Positions 12,857-51,764 of a stretch of DNA of 64,000 nucleotides are shown here, one piece after another. How positions within the stretch are numbered: position 1 is the first letter of the stretch; every line of letters starts with the position of its first letter. Origin of the DNA: Nannochloris sp. 'desiccata' (lineage: Eukaryota > Chlorophyta > Trebouxiophyceae > Chlorellales > Chlorellaceae); assembly GCA_019044685.2 (NCBI GenBank), contig JAGTXX020000012.1, forward strand, positions 1,116,001 to 1,180,000, given 5' to 3'. A program made the position numbers and the translations under genes. The notes under the pieces are model-generated. The model did not search any database, was not told the DNA's origin, and saw only the letters and a program-made list of their open reading frames with translations.

Positions 12857-14470
12857 TTTCGACCGAGTTGACCGATCTGTGCTCGGTGATATCATGCGTA
12901 GCTATGGTTATGACGATACTACTATCGCCAAAGCTATGGACCTACATGATGGTACTACCGCAAAAGTGAAGTGGGGCGGCAAACGCTCCGAGCCTGTTCC
13001 GACGTCCTGGGGTGTAGAACAAGGTGCACCAGCGTCTAATCCATTATGGAACCCCTACGCTGATCTCATTTGTCGTCAAACCATTGCTGATTGTGGACCT
13101 AATGCTGGCATTCAGATCTACCACCAACCCACAACTCAACTCGGTGGCTTTCCAGACTTGCCGCCTGACCCGACGATTGTTTATCTACATAGTCTTCTCT
13201 TAGCTGATGATATTGTCGTACTCGCTGACTCTGCTGCTCAACTTCAAACGTTCTTACTACATTTGGAGAAGAATTGCAAACGATGGGGAATGAGAATTAG
13301 TAAAGAGAAGACCAAACTGATGACCTTTGGCGCTTCAGCAGCAACGCCCGCGGCATGGTCACCGATTTGTATTGATGGGTCTCCGTTGGAGGTAGTAGAT
13401 GCTTACAAGTACTTAGGATCCTGGTTTAGTGAAAGCTGTACTTTGGATAAAGAGTTGTCTGTGAGAATTGGACACGCTATTGCCGCCGCCGTCCGGCTTC
13501 GGAACATATGGCGCTGTAGGTCCATAGGTCTTGCAACCAAGATAAAGGTCTATAAAAGCTTAGTACTTACTATCCTTCTATCATGGAGCTGAATCTTGGC
13601 CATTGACTGAGGCTCAAACTGCTAAACTGGAGACTTTTCACCAGCGGCAGCTGCGAATCATTCTCAGAATCTCATGGTGGCAGCACATTAGTAATAATGA
13701 AGTGTTACAGCGTGCACAGATCTATTCGATTGGAGATAGAATACGCCAAGTGCGTATGCTTTGGTTGGGGCATGTGATGCGAATGGGGCCCTCCAGGATC
13801 CCCTACCAAACCTTGTTTGGCCAGCTCAGCGGGAGGCGCCGCGCTGGTCGCTCACTTTCCCTCACTAATGTGTATTCAAAAGACTTGGACGTCCTGCGGG
13901 GTGGTCTACCCAATGGTCTGCCTTGGATCCAAGCGACATTTGACAAGCGAGCTTGGAAAAACTTTGTGTTGGGAAATTTTGACACTTCACCTCAGGCGCC
14001 TGCACCTGCACCGCCCTTTCAGGGGCCCCCAGGGCTGCCTATTGCTGGCGACAGAACCCTTGTGCGAATGGGGCTTGCCCCAAATAACCTTCTTCTCCCT
14101 GGTGTTCCTGATAGAAGACCCTATACTCCCCCTTCTGGACCTTACACCGGTGCACCTCGTGGCCGGCCTCGAGGTTCAGGAAAACGGAGCCGCCGTGGAA
14201 GGCGACCAGGCTCTTCTGTGTCCAGAGCAGGAAGATCAGAAGATGAAGGTGTGGTTCCATCAGTTCACTCTGATGGATCTACTCTGTTCTTGAGCTGGCG
14301 GCGATATCGTCAGGTGTTGAGATTTCTCCTTGTTAGTTTTCTAACACTCTTTCTAACCTATCGATTCTCTGTTTATTTTTCTAAATAATTGTCTTTATTA
14401 GATGTCTAATATTACTGGCAGTAGGGCACATTTTCTGCGCCAGAGACTGTAATTGTGTGTGTGTGTGTGT
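12857..14470 (+). mobile_element. 5'-truncated non-LTR retrotransposon (LINE)
   Basis: A 1614-base insertion carrying the C-terminal part of a reverse transcriptase ORF, a short 3' UTR and a (TG)n tail at about 14453..14470. It is flanked by a 13-base direct repeat, GGAAAAGTATCGC, at 12844..12856 and 14471..14483. I interpret this as the target-site duplication of a target-primed insertion truncated at its 5' end. The RT frame begins in mid-domain immediately after the left duplication. A related 3' end, with a different dinucleotide tail, is seen at 17113..17181. Confidence 0.85.
12858..14388 (+). pseudogene. LINE reverse transcriptase, truncated and frameshifted
   Basis: Open frame with FDRVDRSVLGDIMRSYG, VEQGAPASNP, the catalytic-site block LLLADDIVVLAD and KTKLMTFG, typical of the LINE RT palm. 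It continues to the thumb with YKYLGSWFSE. At about 13575..13590 the frame shifts: the first frame ends at a TGA while the continuation YHGAESWPLTEAQ runs in another frame. This continues through the conserved GHVMRM block to a Pro/Gly/Arg-rich tail and a stop at 14388. The first parts of RT and any endonuclease domain are missing because of 5' truncation. It cannot be autonomous. Confidence 0.88.
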
Positions 14471-37588: not shown

Positions 37589-38144
37589 TTAATCCTCATA
37601 AACACGGCACTCGTCAGCGTCGGGGTTACCTTCGCAGAACTGCTCGAGGGGGTCAAGCTTCTTGGCTTGCTCCTTGGCGTGGGACGCAGCAGCGCTAAGC
37701 TCCTCAACGGTGTCCCATGCGGTAGCGCTGCAAAGAAAATAGCAAGTAAAACAAGGTTAGTTACAGTGTTTACTACAAGATCATGTTTCATTCTTTGCTC
37801 AAGGCTTATCCAACATCCAAGTAGAAACCACCCATTAAGCAACGCATCCGAGGGCTGTTATCTGTGACAGATTCATATATATGCAATTTAGGCGTATCAC
37901 ACCGGTGTGATACAGCATATACACCCCTGAACACCTTATTTCGCAAATGGGGAGAATTGCCAACTACTCACCATTCGCCCTTGTCGCCTCCGGCGCAAGC
38001 TTCCTGGGCCTCCTTGACAGCATTGTCGATCTGAGCCTGTTCGGGAGCACTGCGAACGAGCATAGCTCTGCGGGGCTGGACAGAGGAGGTTCTTGCGACC
38101 ATGCCTGGCCTGACAAAGTTAACCTTAAGAGCGGCGACCTGCAT
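37589..38144 (-). CDS. CP12: Calvin-cycle regulator CP12
   Basis: Two exons, 38144..37972 and 37727..37589, 103 residues. CP12 is a small disordered plastid protein that, when oxidised, locks GAPDH and phosphoribulokinase into an inactive complex in the dark. The join restores the first redox cysteine pair: EACAGGDKGEC, the second Cys codon being split TG|C by the intron. AWDTVEELSAAASH and the second pair with the GAPDH-binding tail, FCEGNPDADECRVYED, follow. The first 33 or so residues (MQVAALKVNFVRPGMVARTSS) are the transit peptide. All four Cys are present. A hAT-type element has landed 64 bases upstream of the start codon, between CP12 and the divergent PYG7 gene. Confidence 0.95.
37894..37913. 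repeat. 20-bp perfect palindrome in CP12 intron
   Basis: GTATCACACCGGTGTGATAC equals its own reverse complement. It lies inside the 244-base CP12 intron. It could be a regulator binding site, an RNA hairpin or chance. Confidence 0.6.
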
Positions 38145-38242
38145 TTTGTTGCTGACTAGATTTAATTTGAGCAAGTTTAACAAAAGGTTTGCGACTAAAT
38201 TTGGGTTGCTGGTATTCAGTGCTTCGTTTAAGGATTTTGGCC

Positions 38243-38347
38243 TGGCATTTTTTCCCGGCATTTTTTCGTCCCTGGCCTGTTTTTCGGCATTCTGCCCCGG
38301 CATTTTTTCCATATTTGGATTCTGCCCCGGCATTTTTTCCATTTTTT
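38243..38347. repeat. Left subterminal repeat cluster of the hAT element
   Basis: About five copies of CCGGCATTTTTTCC or close variants, some with CTGCCCCGGCATT, in one orientation. Probable transposase-binding subterminal repeats. Confidence 0.65.
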
Positions 38348-38422
38348 TTCTTGACAGCATCAGGCACTATTTCTGAGCAGCGCAGATGCGCCTTATTGAA
38401 ACATGGCTGGAATTTCTTTAGA

Positions 38423-38726
38423 TTACATCTTTAAAAAAGCAAAACAAGGAACTACAAATGCGCTCCACGACGCTTTTTCTTCGCCTTCCATACCTTTTTT
38501 CCTCTTCTGCAACAAGGAAGAAAATTCAGATTTGAATTTGGGTGGCTTATTTTAAGAAATTAAGCATACAGATGACATCACATACCTTCAAAGCAGGTTC
38601 TTTGAACGGAGAAGAAGTCAAATCAATGGGTTGTTGCAAGTGCTGGACAGCCATGACTCGATCAAAGATCTGGGCAACCAAAGTTCGGACTAAGTCCTGA
38701 TCATTGGTCTGCCGAGTGGTATCCAT
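38423..38726 (-). CDS. Two-exon gene-like segment carried inside the hAT element
   Basis: Exon 38726..38586 (47 codons, MDTTRQTNDQDLVRTLV... ending PFKEPALK) is followed by a donor AAG|GTATGT and an acceptor TTGTTGCAG. A second exon 38506..38423 begins with KRKK and stops at TAA, for 74 residues in all. The first exon looks like real helical protein sequence. In the second exon, another frame reads KKVWKAKKKRRGAHL before a stop, which resembles a natural basic C-terminus. The ancestral splice phase may therefore have been different and the fragment decayed. I do not recognise the protein. Its intron shows it was acquired as genomic DNA, probably captured from a host gene. Confidence 0.45.
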
Positions 38727-38798
38727 AGTGATAATGAGAGAATAACCTCTTACAAATGAACTTTTGTTAATTTAGTACTCTAAAACTGGCCTAAATCT

Positions 38799-38962
38799 CC
38801 GGCATTTTTTCAAAATTTTCGAAAAAAACGGCATTTTCCCCCGGCATTTCTGGCCCGCCGGAGCTCCGCTCCGGCACTTTTTGCACGGCATTTTTTCCTG
38901 TTCCTGCGCCTGAAAATGCCGGAAAATTGGCATTTTCCGGCATTTTCGGCATATATGCCGGC
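38799..38962. repeat. Right subterminal repeat cluster of the hAT element
   Basis: At least seven copies of the GGCATTTT motif and its complement AAAATGCC, in both orientations, giving several nested hairpins near the right inverted repeat. Confidence 0.65.
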
Positions 38963-39200
38963 TAAACGAAGCACTGCTGGTATTTTATACTATGGCGAGA
39001 AGGCAGGTCTCATCCAAAAATGGCCCCTCTTCCTGGGTCTCAGGCTTGAAACAAATCGTTTAAAACCCGTAAATCGAAGAGGCTTCGTATAATAGTAAAA
39101 GTATCCAGTAGATAGAGGAACTAGCAGACCGGCTTGAACCGTCGATCGCTCTCCCATCGACCCCATCTTGTCTAAATATCATTTCAGTGCTGCATCTCAA

Positions 39201-40091
39201 ATGAACACTGCAATGCGGGCAATAGCCTCAGTTCAGACGTATCTGGTGTCACAGACGAAGGCCACTGCACCATCTGCGGCAAGATCAGCTAGAATGGCAA
39301 CTAGGCCAGTTTTCAGACCCGCCACCACCACCACCGCTCTAGCTGTCTTTAGAAAAGCCTGGCCTGTCACCTGCTCTAATTCAGCTCAGCCCCAGCAGCA
39401 AACTATCGCTTCTAGTCCCGAATTAGTTGTTGCTTCATCTACCCCAGCATCAGCAGCCACCACTCTCGCTGTGGTTCTTTCCCTCGGCGCTGGAGCCATC
39501 CTCCCCTTCCCCGCAGCTGCTGCTCTTGCTCAACCTCTTGCAGACCTTTCAGAAGGCCTTGAAACCCCAGTCCAACTTATTTATCTCGCTGCATTACTCG
39601 GGTTCCTTGTAGTAGGCGCCTTCTTGGTCGTTCGTCAGGTTCTCATCCGTAGAGAACTTGAGGAAGCCGCAAAAGTTCTCGGCGAACGAGTCCGCACTGG
39701 GGAGGCAACTTCTGAAGACTCTTTTGAGCTTGGCGTCATCTTACTACGCAAAAAATTGTTTACTCAAGCAACTAAAAATTTGGAAAAGGCCAAAAAGGGG
39801 TGGCAAGGTGAAGAAGAAGAGCTTGCGCAGGTCCATAATGCCTTGGGCTATGCATATTTCAACATGGAGCGGGTAGATAGTGCCGTTGAGGAATATAAAG
39901 CAGCTGTAGCTCTTCAGCCTGGGTATGTAACTGCATGGAATAATTTGGGAGATGCGTACGAGAGGTTGAAAGAGTATGGACCTGCTCTTGATGCCTATAG
40001 AGAGGCGTTGAGCTATGCTCCAGATAATAAAGTGGCACAGAGCAGAGCAGATTTTTGTAAAACTCGATTGGAACGGACTGGAAAACTATAG
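39201..40091 (+). CDS. PYG7: PYG7/Ycf37-like photosystem I assembly protein
   Basis: 296 residues from the ATG at 39201; the upstream TTTCAG may be the acceptor of a leader intron. PYG7/Ycf37 is a thylakoid TPR protein required to assemble or stabilise photosystem I. Residues 1 to about 75 are a Ser/Ala/Thr/Arg-rich transit region, followed by an Ala-rich hydrophobic stretch (about 85-115). One membrane span is IYLAALLGFLVVGAFLVV. The family block VRQVLIRRELEEAAKVLGE follows, then three TPR units containing AQVHNALGYAYFN, LQPGYVTAWNNLGDAYERL and YGPALDAYREAL. It is head to head with CP12, another plastid gene. The order TM-linker-TPR matches plant PYG7. Confidence 0.88.
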   Translation: MNTAMRAIASVQTYLVSQTKATAPSAARSARMATRPVFRPATTTTALAVFRKAWPVTCSNSAQPQQQTIASSPELVVASSTPASAATTLAVVLSLGAGAILPFPAAAALAQPLADLSEGLETPVQLIYLAALLGFLVVGAFLVVRQVLIRRELEEAAKVLGERVRTGEATSEDSFELGVILLRKKLFTQATKNLEKAKKGWQGEEEELAQVHNALGYAYFNMERVDSAVEEYKAAVALQPGYVTAWNNLGDAYERLKEYGPALDAYREALSYAPDNKVAQSRADFCKTRLERTGKL

Positions 40092-47522: not shown

Positions 47523-49742
47523 TTATGCTTTATCAGCAACCTCATTTTCATCATCCAATCCAATGCTGCTTCCTTGTTGCTGTTTAGGGAGCAGTGGTGC
47601 GAAAACAGGCGAGCCACGCTTCTCGCGGGCAATGAGCACGGCGAGTGCAACAAGGGCAGCAAGTGCCAAACAGGAGGCAATCGCAATGCCAGCAATTGCG
47701 CCACCAGAAAGGCCGCTACTATTATTCTCATTATTTGTTGCAGACATTTGGCCAGCCAAACGTAACTTATGTGCTGGTATATCGAATTGAGACTTTCCAA
47801 ACTCGAAGCCATCAAGCCGGCGGTTGATGACAGCCGTGTTAGCAAGGTAGCTGATAGGAAGGTAAATAGCTTGTTCGTGGATAGCTGTAAGTATCTTCTT
47901 CCAGAGCTCTGTGCGTTCTTCAATATTTTCGGTCAATAACACTCGGCTGATGGTCTCATCCAGCTCCGTCTTATTCATAGGCTCAGCTAGGCCCTCGATG
48001 TCGTTACGCATCCCCTGCTGTGCTGCGAAAGATGCCTCGTCAGGTACACGCCAAGATGCTGCAAAAGAATGAGGATCATAAGGGGATCCCCAGGATTCGG
48101 AAAATGCCAATGAAAAGTCTCCATTTTGAGCTCTTGAGTTCCAATCATCTTTAGGTAATGGCACTGCCACCACATCAATTCCAAGCTCGGCAAGGTCTTT
48201 GCGCACGTCGTCTTCTAAAGCTTTTTGAACTGCATCATCTTTCACGTAGATAAACTCCAAAGAAAGTAATGTTCCATTTTTGCTTCGAATGCCGGTACCA
48301 TTGGCTGGCATAACCCATCCATCTGCATCCAAAAGTAATTTTGCCTTTTCAAAATCAAAATCCATCAGAGGGAACAGGTCCACATCGCAGTAGGGAAGAT
48401 TACGAGAAAACACGGAATGCGCTACTTCTTCAATGCCCCCAAGATCATTAGAGATCATTGATGCTTTGTTGATGCCATGAACGATTGCCTTGCGCACTGA
48501 CAGCGACGATGTCGGCCCGTTTGCCGAATTAATCACAACCAAGCGAGTGTTCAATGGCGGGGAGATGAAGGTCTCGAGATTACTGAGTTTGGTTGCTTCC
48601 TTAAAATCTCCCGCTGTCATGCTAGCAGTTCCGTAGGCTACATCGAGAGAACCGACTGAAAGAGCGTTTAACACGTCTTCATGTGTATTATAGCGACGGA
48701 CAATTAGACCAGCATGCTCAGGCTTTCCGCCCCAATAATGAGGGTTTGCATCAAAGTGTACCTCTTGAACAACTTCATCGTCCTCCAACTCTGCTATTGC
48801 GACTTCAGAGAGGCCAATAACGCGTTTATTAGTGATAGTTTGTACGAAAACATAAGGACCAGTACCGATGGGCGAAATGTGCCCTTCGCAAATAGCCTCA
48901 GCTGATCCATCGGCTGCCTCTACCGTGCCCCAGGTTCGAGGGCAAGTATTGCCGTTTTCAGGCATTTGGGCCTTGGAAAGCATACGAAGGGGGCGAATGT
49001 ACGTAAGCTCTTGTAGTGCAGGGTAGTAAGGGGAGTTAAAAACAAGGTCGAATGCGAATTCGTCCTTGACTTCCCAAGAGGTCAAACGGGAAGGCAAATC
49101 ATACCTGCAGTAATGCAATTATGGCAATGTTAGGCACCTTGAGCTCTAAATAGGGCGTTTTTTAATAATTTATAAGTTTGAATGCGACATTAAATGATCC
49201 GCAAACCTGGTGACGATTTACTTACCAGCCATGATAGTCTTCAGAAAGCAATGCTTTTGCAAGAACGTTGTCAAAGTTAGCGGCAGCAACTTCCGCGTTC
49301 CAAGGGGTGCCATCATGGAACTTGACATCTTTACGCAAGGTAAACGATATAATGTAAGTACCATTTGGGCCGTCGCGCTCTGTCCACGAGCTTGCCAAAG
49401 CAGGGAGGATCTCGCCGTTGCCTCCGTAGGAGGTCAGTCCTTCGTAAATCCAATTGTTTGAGAAGAATTCATTGGGTCTGTATCCTGCAAGCATTTTAAA
49501 TGTATTGAGGTGATTTTAGAGATGGCTAAATCTTGAAAATCTTGCAAAAGGGTTGACTTCCTATATTTCTTACCATGTGGAGACAGCGGGCCGACTGAAT
49601 TGAACAACCCCGTCTGAGCAGAAGGGGAGATACTTATCATTTCTGCACCTTGATCGGCAAATGAAGAAGAAATCATCAAAGTCACCGTAATGATAGCTGC
49701 CTTCGAGGCTGAAACAAGCGTGCGTGGCACCATCACCAACAT
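47523..49742 (-). CDS. NikA/SBP_bac_5-type solute-binding protein with C-terminal membrane anchor
   Basis: Three exons, 49742..49574, 49484..49226 and 49104..47523, 669 residues. It opens with a signal peptide (KAAIITVTLMISSSFA). Residues about 35-610 match bacterial family 5 extracellular solute-binding proteins, closest by eye to nickel-binding NikA: GYRPNEFFSNNWIYEGL, LRKDVKFHDGTPWNAE, IGTGPYVF, NPHYWGG, VVINSANG and SVRKAIVHGINK. A Ser/Gly linker, one membrane helix (GAIAGIAIASCLALAALVALAV) and a short Lys/Arg- then Gln/acid-rich cytoplasmic tail follow. Bacterial relatives are soluble or lipid-anchored and serve ABC importers. Here the two introns, the eukaryotic signal peptide and the type I anchor indicate transfer from bacteria followed by domestication. 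The ligand is unknown. Confidence 0.87.
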
Positions 49743-50357
49743 TTCGAAAAAACAAAGGTGGCAGAAGGGTAGAGCGATAATTTTTTTCGTCCGAACGCCC
49801 GAAGAGAGAGATACGGGGATATTTAGTAATGGATATATGAAGAATAGGCAGGGTTTCGCGTTTTAGTGACTGCAAACTACCACACCTGGATCAAAGATTC
49901 ACCTTCCTCAATCCCCAACTTTTCAAAAAACTTAAGGAGGGGCTGAAAGGGTGCAACGAGCTCTTCTATGGCCGACATTTGCTATATTCTGTTCAATATT
50001 TGAAGGCGCAGTTCATTATTTTGCAAACGGTTGTAACATCAAATCAAGAGATTTAGAGAATTCATAGAGGAAGAACTGACAAAGGAAGATGAACGCTCAG
50101 CTGTTTATTACTTGATTTGAGCTACTATAATACTGGACTAGAAGGATTTTCAGGCAATCTAAGCTCAAAGTAGGCCTCTCGCAACGAAAAGTTTGAAAAG
50201 ATTTGTAGCAGTTCCATTGTCACACCGTGTCTTTTCAACGAATCCATAGCTAGAAAGCGAAAGGTCGCTGAAAAGAAACAAGAACCCTATTCAGGTGTGC
50301 CCCATCCTAAGAAGACCCCAAGCCTTCACAGAGGAACGCTGTTTGGTCTCATATATA
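49743..50357. promoter_or_regulatory. Divergent promoter region solute-binding protein / STEAP-like
   Basis: About 615 bases between divergent starts. In-frame codons continue upstream of the STEAP-like ATG to 50295 but without family resemblance. No specific element was recognised. Confidence 0.45.
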
Positions 50358-51764
50358 ATGTCGGTGTCGACCCAACGTCGTATGAAAGTTGCAATAATTG
50401 GGACTGGGCGGATGGGACAGGCCTTGGCTATCCGGTGTGTTAATTTTGGAGGATGTAGTAAATATGATGTATCAGTTGGATCACGTCATCCAACTAGCAG
50501 TATTGAACACCCTGGTCTCTCTGTGCCGGTGCTGGAAAATGCCGCAGCTCTCTCAGGCGCCAACATAGTAGTCCTTGCAATCCCTGTATCTGCATTTCCA
50601 CACATCACATCTAAGTATTCTGAGCTTCTTCAAAATGTGATAGTTATAGATATTTCCAATGCCAGTGTAGCAGAGCGTGGTGAACTTTATGCCAGGTCAA
50701 CAACTGCAGTGGGAGAGGCGAACGACACGTCATCATTCAAGTCGTTAGATCCTCCGTCTTCAGCTGAATGGCTTCAAGAACGGCTAGGTTCTTCAGTTCA
50801 GGTAGTGAAAGCGTTCAATAATCTTGGCTCAAAAGCCATTCGAAGCGGTAATATGTATGCTCAATTGGAAACAGTGGCCATATCCAATTCGATGGAAGCC
50901 TTGAAGATTGTTCAAGATTTCGCAGCAGCATCTGGTATTACAGTCACACACAGTGTCGACGATTTACAATTTTCACGGCATTTGGAAAGAATACAGCAAG
51001 CTTCTGCTTTAAAAGAATGGCAAACTCCATTCTACTTGCTATTAGTGCTGGGTCTCGTCATGTTTATCTACTGTGCTGCCAGATCCATGGTGGTTGGGAA
51101 AAACCTCGTTCAAACGTGCAACAGTTCAATTGCTTGGTTATCTATTACTGGACTAAGCTTAACCTACCTTCCTGGAGCTATTGTGCGCGTGAGGAAAATA
51201 ATAGTCAATGCAGACCAGCCGCTGCTACCACTCTGGTTTGTGCAATGGCTAGAAGTACGCAAGGAATTAGGCACTCTGTCCTGGGCAGCCGCTTTTCTGC
51301 ACATGTATCTAACGGTTTTCCTACTCAATCCAGCATACTGCGATTACTTGTATGACTTGGATTCTCATGTATTGAATTTCAGAGGTAATTGGACAATACT
51401 GAGTGGAACAATTGCTTTTATCTTCATGACGCTTCCTGCTGTCGCCTCTCTGCCCGGGATCGGAAACAAACTCAACCACCGATCCTGGGTCTTTATGCAG
51501 TCTACTGGAGGCATTGCTGCCCTCATTCTGTCGTCTTTTCACACAATCACTCTAGGATCGGAGATATGGCTGCCAATCCGTTCATGGAAATTCTATATGC
51601 CGCCCGTCTCCTTGGCGGCTTTTGTACTGCCTTGTATTGTCGTTTTTATAACAGTTTTAGCCTTTGGTTGGAATTTTGTTTGTCGCAATCTAGGACGCAC
51701 TGTGCCGCGCTGCCATATTGTGCGAGATGGGTATGCTGAACTTGCTGTATATCAGCGGGTGTGA
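50358..51764 (+). CDS. STEAP-like metalloreductase
   Basis: Single exon, 468 residues from the ATG at 50358 (MSVSTQRRMKVAIIG); in-frame ATGs at 50295 and 50385 are alternatives. The N-terminal half is an F420/NADP-type oxidoreductase Rossmann domain with GTGRMGQAL, VSVGSRHP and VKAFNNLGSKA. The C-terminal half is a six-helix ferric-reductase-like domain with membrane spans beginning at FYLLLVLGLVMFIYCA. Candidate haem-ligating His occur in FLHMYLTVFLL and SSFHTITLG. This NADPH-domain plus FRD-TM arrangement is that of animal STEAP proteins, which reduce Fe3+ and Cu2+ at membranes. The order and length fit (human STEAPs about 450-490). A role in metal uptake at plasma membrane or endosome is inferred. 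Confidence 0.82.
   Translation: MSVSTQRRMKVAIIGTGRMGQALAIRCVNFGGCSKYDVSVGSRHPTSSIEHPGLSVPVLENAAALSGANIVVLAIPVSAFPHITSKYSELLQNVIVIDISNASVAERGELYARSTTAVGEANDTSSFKSLDPPSSAEWLQERLGSSVQVVKAFNNLGSKAIRSGNMYAQLETVAISNSMEALKIVQDFAAASGITVTHSVDDLQFSRHLERIQQASALKEWQTPFYLLLVLGLVMFIYCAARSMVVGKNLVQTCNSSIAWLSITGLSLTYLPGAIVRVRKIIVNADQPLLPLWFVQWLEVRKELGTLSWAAAFLHMYLTVFLLNPAYCDYLYDLDSHVLNFRGNWTILSGTIAFIFMTLPAVASLPGIGNKLNHRSWVFMQSTGGIAALILSSFHTITLGSEIWLPIRSWKFYMPPVSLAAFVLPCIVVFITVLAFGWNFVCRNLGRTVPRCHIVRDGYAELAVYQRV

Follow-up and report, generated by a model that had tools for sequence, protein, structure and literature searches.

The stretch of DNA analysed here (the window) comprises 64,000 nucleotides of Nannochloris sp. 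'desiccata' (C12:1116001-1180000) with a GC content of 45.6%. Ndes2526A_g07811, a protein recorded for this species, aligns to contig C14 with all 600 residues identical and a single gap of 45 residues, apparently an annotated intron. It carries, in divergent orientation, a gene for CP12, whose hand-spliced product contains the CP12 domain (PF02672, 1.9e-22), and a gene for a PYG7-like TPR protein. The intergenic region between them measures 1,055 bp, or 287 bp when 760 bp and one 8-bp duplication are subtracted. A non-autonomous hAT element is located in this region and spans 760 bp, the target duplications not included (Table 1). The left target duplication begins at 38209 and the CP12 ATG lies at 38145, both as read by hand, and the gap of 64 bases to the start codon given in the original prediction is about right.

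Table 1. Coordinates of the element, its parts and its neighbours in the window, and of the transposase exons in the full-length copy on contig C10
Feature	Position	Strand	Remark
CP12 exon 1 (start codon side), left neighbour	37972-38145	-	splice site read by hand
Left target-site duplication CTGGTATT	38209-38216	.	direct repeat
Non-autonomous hAT element, 760 bp, type A variant	38217-38976	.	7 other copies identical
Left terminal inverted repeat CAGTGCTTCGTTTA	38217-38230	+	perfect, 14 bp
Left subterminal array, 4 GGCATTTT units	38244-38336	+	function inferred
Predicted 74-aa truncated product	38423-38726	-	spliced model, exon 1 plus remainder 38423-38506; identical to annotated protein NADE_002141
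Transposase exon 3 tail with its own stop codon, out of frame	38452-38494	-	coordinates hand-converted
Internal-deletion junction; the full-length copy has ATACC on either side of the lost part	38490-38494	.	about 2,484 bp gone (subtraction)
Transposase exon 2, first 17 bases (KRKKG + two bases)	38490-38506	-	last 5 common to exon 3 side
Transposase intron 1 (79 bp, GT-AG)	38507-38585	-	spliced model
Transposase exon 1 (47 aa, MDTTRQ...EPALK)	38586-38726	-	spliced model
Right subterminal array, 6 GGCATTTT units (5 on +, 1 on -)	38801-38946	.	function inferred
Right terminal inverted repeat	38963-38976	-	perfect, 14 bp
Right target-site duplication CTGGTATT	38977-38984	.	direct repeat
PYG7-like TPR protein gene, right neighbour	39201-40091	+	ATG at 39201
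Full-length copy, exon 1	C10:468898-469038	-	79-bp intron next
Full-length copy, exon 2	C10:467475-468818	-	115-bp intron next
Full-length copy, exon 3	C10:466280-467359	-	carries PF05699

The original prediction had placed a hAT-type element of 760 bp between CP12 and PYG7, with perfect 14-bp inverted ends, an 8-bp target duplication and subterminal repeats, and in all these respects it is supported. Short terminal inverted repeats, a hallmark of hAT elements, are present, and exact 8-bp target duplications, as for the hAT superfamily, flank every one of the 28 insertions examined, which comprise 23 single short copies, two composites, the full-length copy, a 382-bp copy and one nested self-insertion. 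The motif GGCATTTT occurs four times in element bases 1-150, six times in bases 571-760 and not at all in between, against means of 0.004, 0.004 and 0.012 for the same three zones, in the order reported, in mononucleotide shuffles; elsewhere in the window it is found eight times. By analogy with Ac, the units of the left array are putative transposase-binding sites. The 760-bp element is real far beyond chance, with 27 genome copies at 99-100% identity, that of the window included.

In a search of the genome (21.55 Mb, 18 contigs) with the 760-bp sequence, at least 76 matches were obtained, many of them to a 36-base internal palindrome and others shorter or diverged. They include at least 27 near-complete copies and, on C10, the two halves of a 28th. 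A search for further copies with the same ends, as proposed in the original prediction, returned 59 exact occurrences of the 14-base end among the matches listed and 11 more with one mismatch, compared with 12 occurrences of the reversed control pattern at the same tolerance. One exact end, at C10:101533, was rejected as a copy, as none of the element's sequence lies behind it.

The interruption of the 28th copy by about 2.5 kb proved to be a full-length element, not a foreign insertion. This copy (C10:466044-469288, 3,245 bp) has the same ends as the short element and is flanked on both sides by the target duplication CTCAGGAA. On its minus strand it encodes, after splicing, an uninterrupted three-exon hAT transposase of 854 aa, the introns being predictions with GT-AG ends. 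The C-terminal dimerisation domain that marks an autonomous hAT member is present in exon 3 (Dimer_Tnp_hAT, PF05699; 24.6 bits vs a cut-off of 21.4; one of nine matches in the genome), and a zinc-finger-like stretch gives a weak Pfam match, below the cut-off. Besides this zinc finger, two further Pfam matches of the exon-2 protein (E 0.03 and 0.09) were taken as chance. The conserved blocks VTVDAS, IGSDGC and SVENERQFS are shared with relatives, the third being reached by three of the six; acidic residues within them, chosen by hAT motifs, are candidates for the DDE catalytic triad of an RNase H fold. A sequence search of solved structures in the PDB returned no credible relative, a beta-lactamase match (E 4.6) being taken as chance. 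The C10 copy is the sole locus at 100% identity among five genome matches of exon 2 and eleven of exon 3, and no other candidate source of this transposase was seen in the assembly. A viral origin was considered and rejected: the exon-2 protein found no relative in viral_contigs, where two stretches matched a word and neither was confirmed. The 17-base end matched six viral contigs, a number that we presume to be near chance from the size assumed for that collection.

Further hAT transposase loci, with approximately 37-44% identity to the C10 transposase, are found at C14:524505-526907 and C14:543360-545030 and are possibly other autonomous families. One of them is an uninterrupted frame of 824 aa, and its alignment spans the exon 2/exon 3 boundary of the C10 gene. 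At C11:1851080-1852182 (L088), two transposase-like fragments lie in inverted orientation, facing each other. Exon 1 is unrecognisable in more distant transposases, and the autonomous element itself may have acquired it anciently. A diverged element at C10:220804 likewise has exon 1 next to an exon-3 fragment.

By subtraction of lengths, the short element corresponds to the full-length C10 copy minus approximately 2,484 bp. The left part of the window element is identical to that copy at 278 of 279 positions and the right part at 489 of 494, with one gap in each. In the full-length copy ATACC stands on both flanks of the missing part, while at the join of the short element these 5 bp occur once. 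Besides the deletion, the window element differs by one missing A, two substitutions to the right of the join and a G-to-A change at column 345. Because the two junction-adjacent substitutions are common to all 27 short copies, a founder-like one included, and are absent from the C10 copy, the latter is a near relative of the parent but not demonstrably the parent itself.

This comparison also accounts for the interior. The intron-containing open segment that had been noticed there is real, in the form of a spliced 74-aa model on the minus strand. It was also rightly said that there is no transposase, as only exon 1 and fragments of exons 2 and 3 remain. On the predicted splicing, what looks like a two-exon gene consists of the first exon and first intron of the transposase gene that belongs to the element itself, followed by the start of exon 2, and does not derive from a captured host gene. 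Of exon 3 the last 43 bases persist, five of them shared at the join, in a different frame. The 74-aa product ends ahead of the zinc-finger-like stretch and of all catalytic and dimerisation parts, and its one Pfam match, below the cut-off (RYDR_ITPR, E 0.032), was taken as chance.

All 27 short copies were read and aligned; they are 746-761 bp long and fall into eight distinct sequences. Thirteen, among them that of the window, are of type A, with a 6-base CATATT, no A at column 226 and an A at column 345, and thirteen are of type B, with the opposite state at all three sites; the typing disregarded an A run at column 608, 7 or 8 bases long and variable in A and B alike, and a T that one copy has in addition at column 32. 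The remaining copy, C15:27733, combines CATATT, the extra A and G, which are the states of the full-length copy at the three sites separating A from B, and carries them as a founder would. From the near-identity of the short copies we infer that their burst was recent.

Together, these data lead us to regard the 760-bp segment, with a probability of about 0.96, as Ds-like, a hAT derivative shortened by internal deletion that has a recognisable full-length partner, and not as a Pack-type element. Its ends and subterminal parts are colinear with the autonomous element and the interior is gone. The ends, target duplications, copy number, full-length relative, deletion and transposase reading frame can be read from the assembly itself. 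We propose that a full-length element like C10:466044-469288 lost about 2.48 kb in a single internal deletion, with 5 bp common to the two breakpoints, and that this left a short element with both ends and the subterminal repeats. Because these are retained, the transposase of the full-length copy presumably cuts and pastes the short element in trans. The short element would then have spread very recently to its 27 copies, one of which landed in the short divergent promoter region of CP12 and PYG7, where any effect on either gene would be a further supposition.

In the original prediction the segment was a Pack-type hAT element, its two-exon interior having been taken from a host gene with no relation to the transposon. 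The ends, the target duplication, the want of a complete transposase and the intron-containing open segment would all suit such a capture; however, the transposase gene, complete in the full-length copy at C10:466044-469288, opens with a colinear stretch of exon 1, intron 1 and exon 2 start, and the segment is the 5' part of that gene. A search of the genome with the exon 1 protein (E up to 1) gave 29 matches, all inside the transposon family: one in each of the 27 short copies, one in the full-length copy and one in the diverged element at C10:220801-220905. The host donor for which the original prediction had proposed to look was not among them. In a set of 5.8 billion proteins, searched by shared 5-residue words such that distant relatives could be missed, the 74-aa product had two candidates and two matches; each match is annotated in Nannochloris sp. 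'desiccata', and each includes exon 1. In being without a complete transposase the short element resembles Pack-TYPE elements, whereas host gene sequence with a donor elsewhere, the other mark of that class, was not found in this genome. Capture is therefore rejected for the short element in this genome, where no host donor came to light and the interior is part of the element's own transposase gene, and we hold it to be extremely improbable. An intron-bearing segment within a transposon can be the stump of the transposon's own gene, a tempting misreading that is hereby corrected; the public annotation lists such a transposase stump as the hypothetical protein NADE_002141. This annotation of the two-exon model, together with an exon 1 protein that is 100% identical at 28 of the 29 genome matches, would also agree with the short element being a functional gene of two exons, its small product controlling transposition in the manner of a truncated-transposase repressor. 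Yet that product stops before the zinc-finger-like, catalytic and dimerisation parts and its final third is out of frame. Moreover, the extra A at column 226, present in 14 of the 27 short copies, hits the last codons and alters the end of the product (read by hand). Recency alone accounts for the identity, as the copies vary at only five places over their whole length, two truncated ends set aside, and a repressor is in our estimation very unlikely.

The stretching of the divergent CP12-PYG7 region from 287 to 1,055 bp could mean that the insertion has become fixed as a promoter module driving or insulating both genes, but 24 other sites hold 26 further short copies, and landing or surviving in non-coding DNA is a habit of the family. 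With flanks of 450 bp, 25 sites could be compared, and an open stretch of at least 150 codons runs across the empty site in only two of them, C6:2758405 and C9:839878, the latter holding the 382-bp copy. The other 23 are without one, compared with 69% of 2,000 random positions that have one when the window alone serves as background. The pair C6:2294871/2295811 (shorter flanks) and the C7 self-insertion (no host site) were left out of the 25. This distribution fits a family that inserts into, or survives in, non-coding DNA, and we regard a promoter module as very improbable. A search of viral_contigs with PYG7, seeking an empty orthologous site in relatives, returned no relative; nine word matches were obtained and none was confirmed.

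The Ds-like element also occurs in pairs. At C7:459639-461161 (L062), a type B copy is interrupted in its right end by an inserted type A copy, with GGCTAAAC as the inner and CTCTGAAT as the outer duplication. The same unit, B(1-751)+A, is found at C9:479267-480774 (L063) with a flanking duplication of its own, CCCCAATG. The 17 bases following the inner copy on C7 are missing from the fused pair on C9; otherwise the two pairs are identical save for the length of one A run in each half. These sequences are most simply read as the result of a transposition in which the transposase acted on the left end of the outer copy and the right end of the inner one and carried both copies along as a single unit. 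In the accessible part of PMC8903248, re-mobilisation of neighbouring insertions is the proposed route of Pack-TYPE growth. The annotated protein NADE_006724 (100 aa), one of the two matches of the 74-aa product, holds transposase exon 1 nearly twice in a row and is probably a spurious gene model drawn across the C9 tandem pair. A more far-reaching possibility, of which we are doubtful, is that this trebouxiophyte harbours an active Ac/Ds-like system of two components, with one autonomous copy, a fresh burst of short copies, the C7 pair as intermediate and the C9 pair as product, and a retuned CP12-PYG7 promoter; current activity would have to be assumed. If true, the two pairs would show both stages in the growth of composite and Pack-type elements by nested insertion. 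With a probable autonomous partner and a well-marked set of near-identical short copies in a genome this small, hAT activity, excision and composite formation would become easily testable in a trebouxiophyte.

Comparison with known systems relies on the accessible portions of the cited papers. As there described, the Ds-del class of the maize Ac/Ds system (PMC3260210) likewise consists of simple internal-deletion derivatives of an autonomous hAT element that keep the inverted ends and subterminal repeats, make 8-bp duplications and hold a transposase fragment inside. The algal element differs in its host lineage, in having 14-bp instead of 11-bp ends and in its 27 near-identical copies; the likeness rests on element structure, with transposase sequences set aside. 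With Pack-TYPE hAT elements (PMC8903248) it shares its non-autonomous nature and the superfamily hallmarks, and the nested C7 and fused C9 pairs fit the model of tandem insertion followed by re-mobilisation set out in that part of the text; in contrast, the interior here is the transposon's own gene and no host gene sequence was found. Like hAT MITEs such as mar in Drosophila (PMC3517528, in part), it is a short non-autonomous element of the same superfamily, and like MITEs in general it is short and derived from an autonomous element, yet its coding remnants are still recognisable and a 74-aa open gene model remains where a MITE is non-coding. In Auxenochlorella, according to excerpts of PMC12636532, many insertions of potentially active families, hAT among them, segregate between the two haplotypes; by description only, this is likewise a cut-and-paste hAT in a compact, diploid trebouxiophyte genome. 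The same excerpts give 21.6 Mb and 45.0% GC for N. desiccata UTEX 2526 and speak of Nannochloris genomes as diploid. Among the listed titles and abstract openings on green-algal hAT, Pack-TYPE, MITE and nested hAT elements, none names the family; most subscription papers and Sanders et al. 2022 lie outside this survey.

Other members and relatives of the family were observed. A second deletion derivative of 382 bp, with its own 8-bp duplication, lies at C9:839878-840259 (L049, 1379-1760), and its two end parts are approximately 94-95% identical to the full-length copy. Two diverged relatives on C15 (L051, 1029-1934, 906 bp; L052, 1019-1940, 922 bp) have the ends CAGTGTTTCGTTTA. Of their target duplications, CCAAAGAG is the reverse complement of CTCTTTGG, a pattern that an inverted duplication of a single site would produce. 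At the diverged loci L050, L053, L054 and L056-L061, no pair of ends was detected by the patterns used.

Elsewhere in the window, a reverse transcriptase fragment at 12879-13592 (PF00078, 1.4e-10; DUF6451 below the cut-off) is perhaps a decayed non-LTR retrotransposon. An open frame at 47523-49118 encodes a bacterial extracellular solute-binding protein family 5 domain (PF00496, 1.9e-36) and is a possible old transfer from bacteria. At 50295-51764, F420_oxidored and ferric reductase-like domains are combined in one open frame, an arrangement that we take to be that of STEAP metalloreductases.
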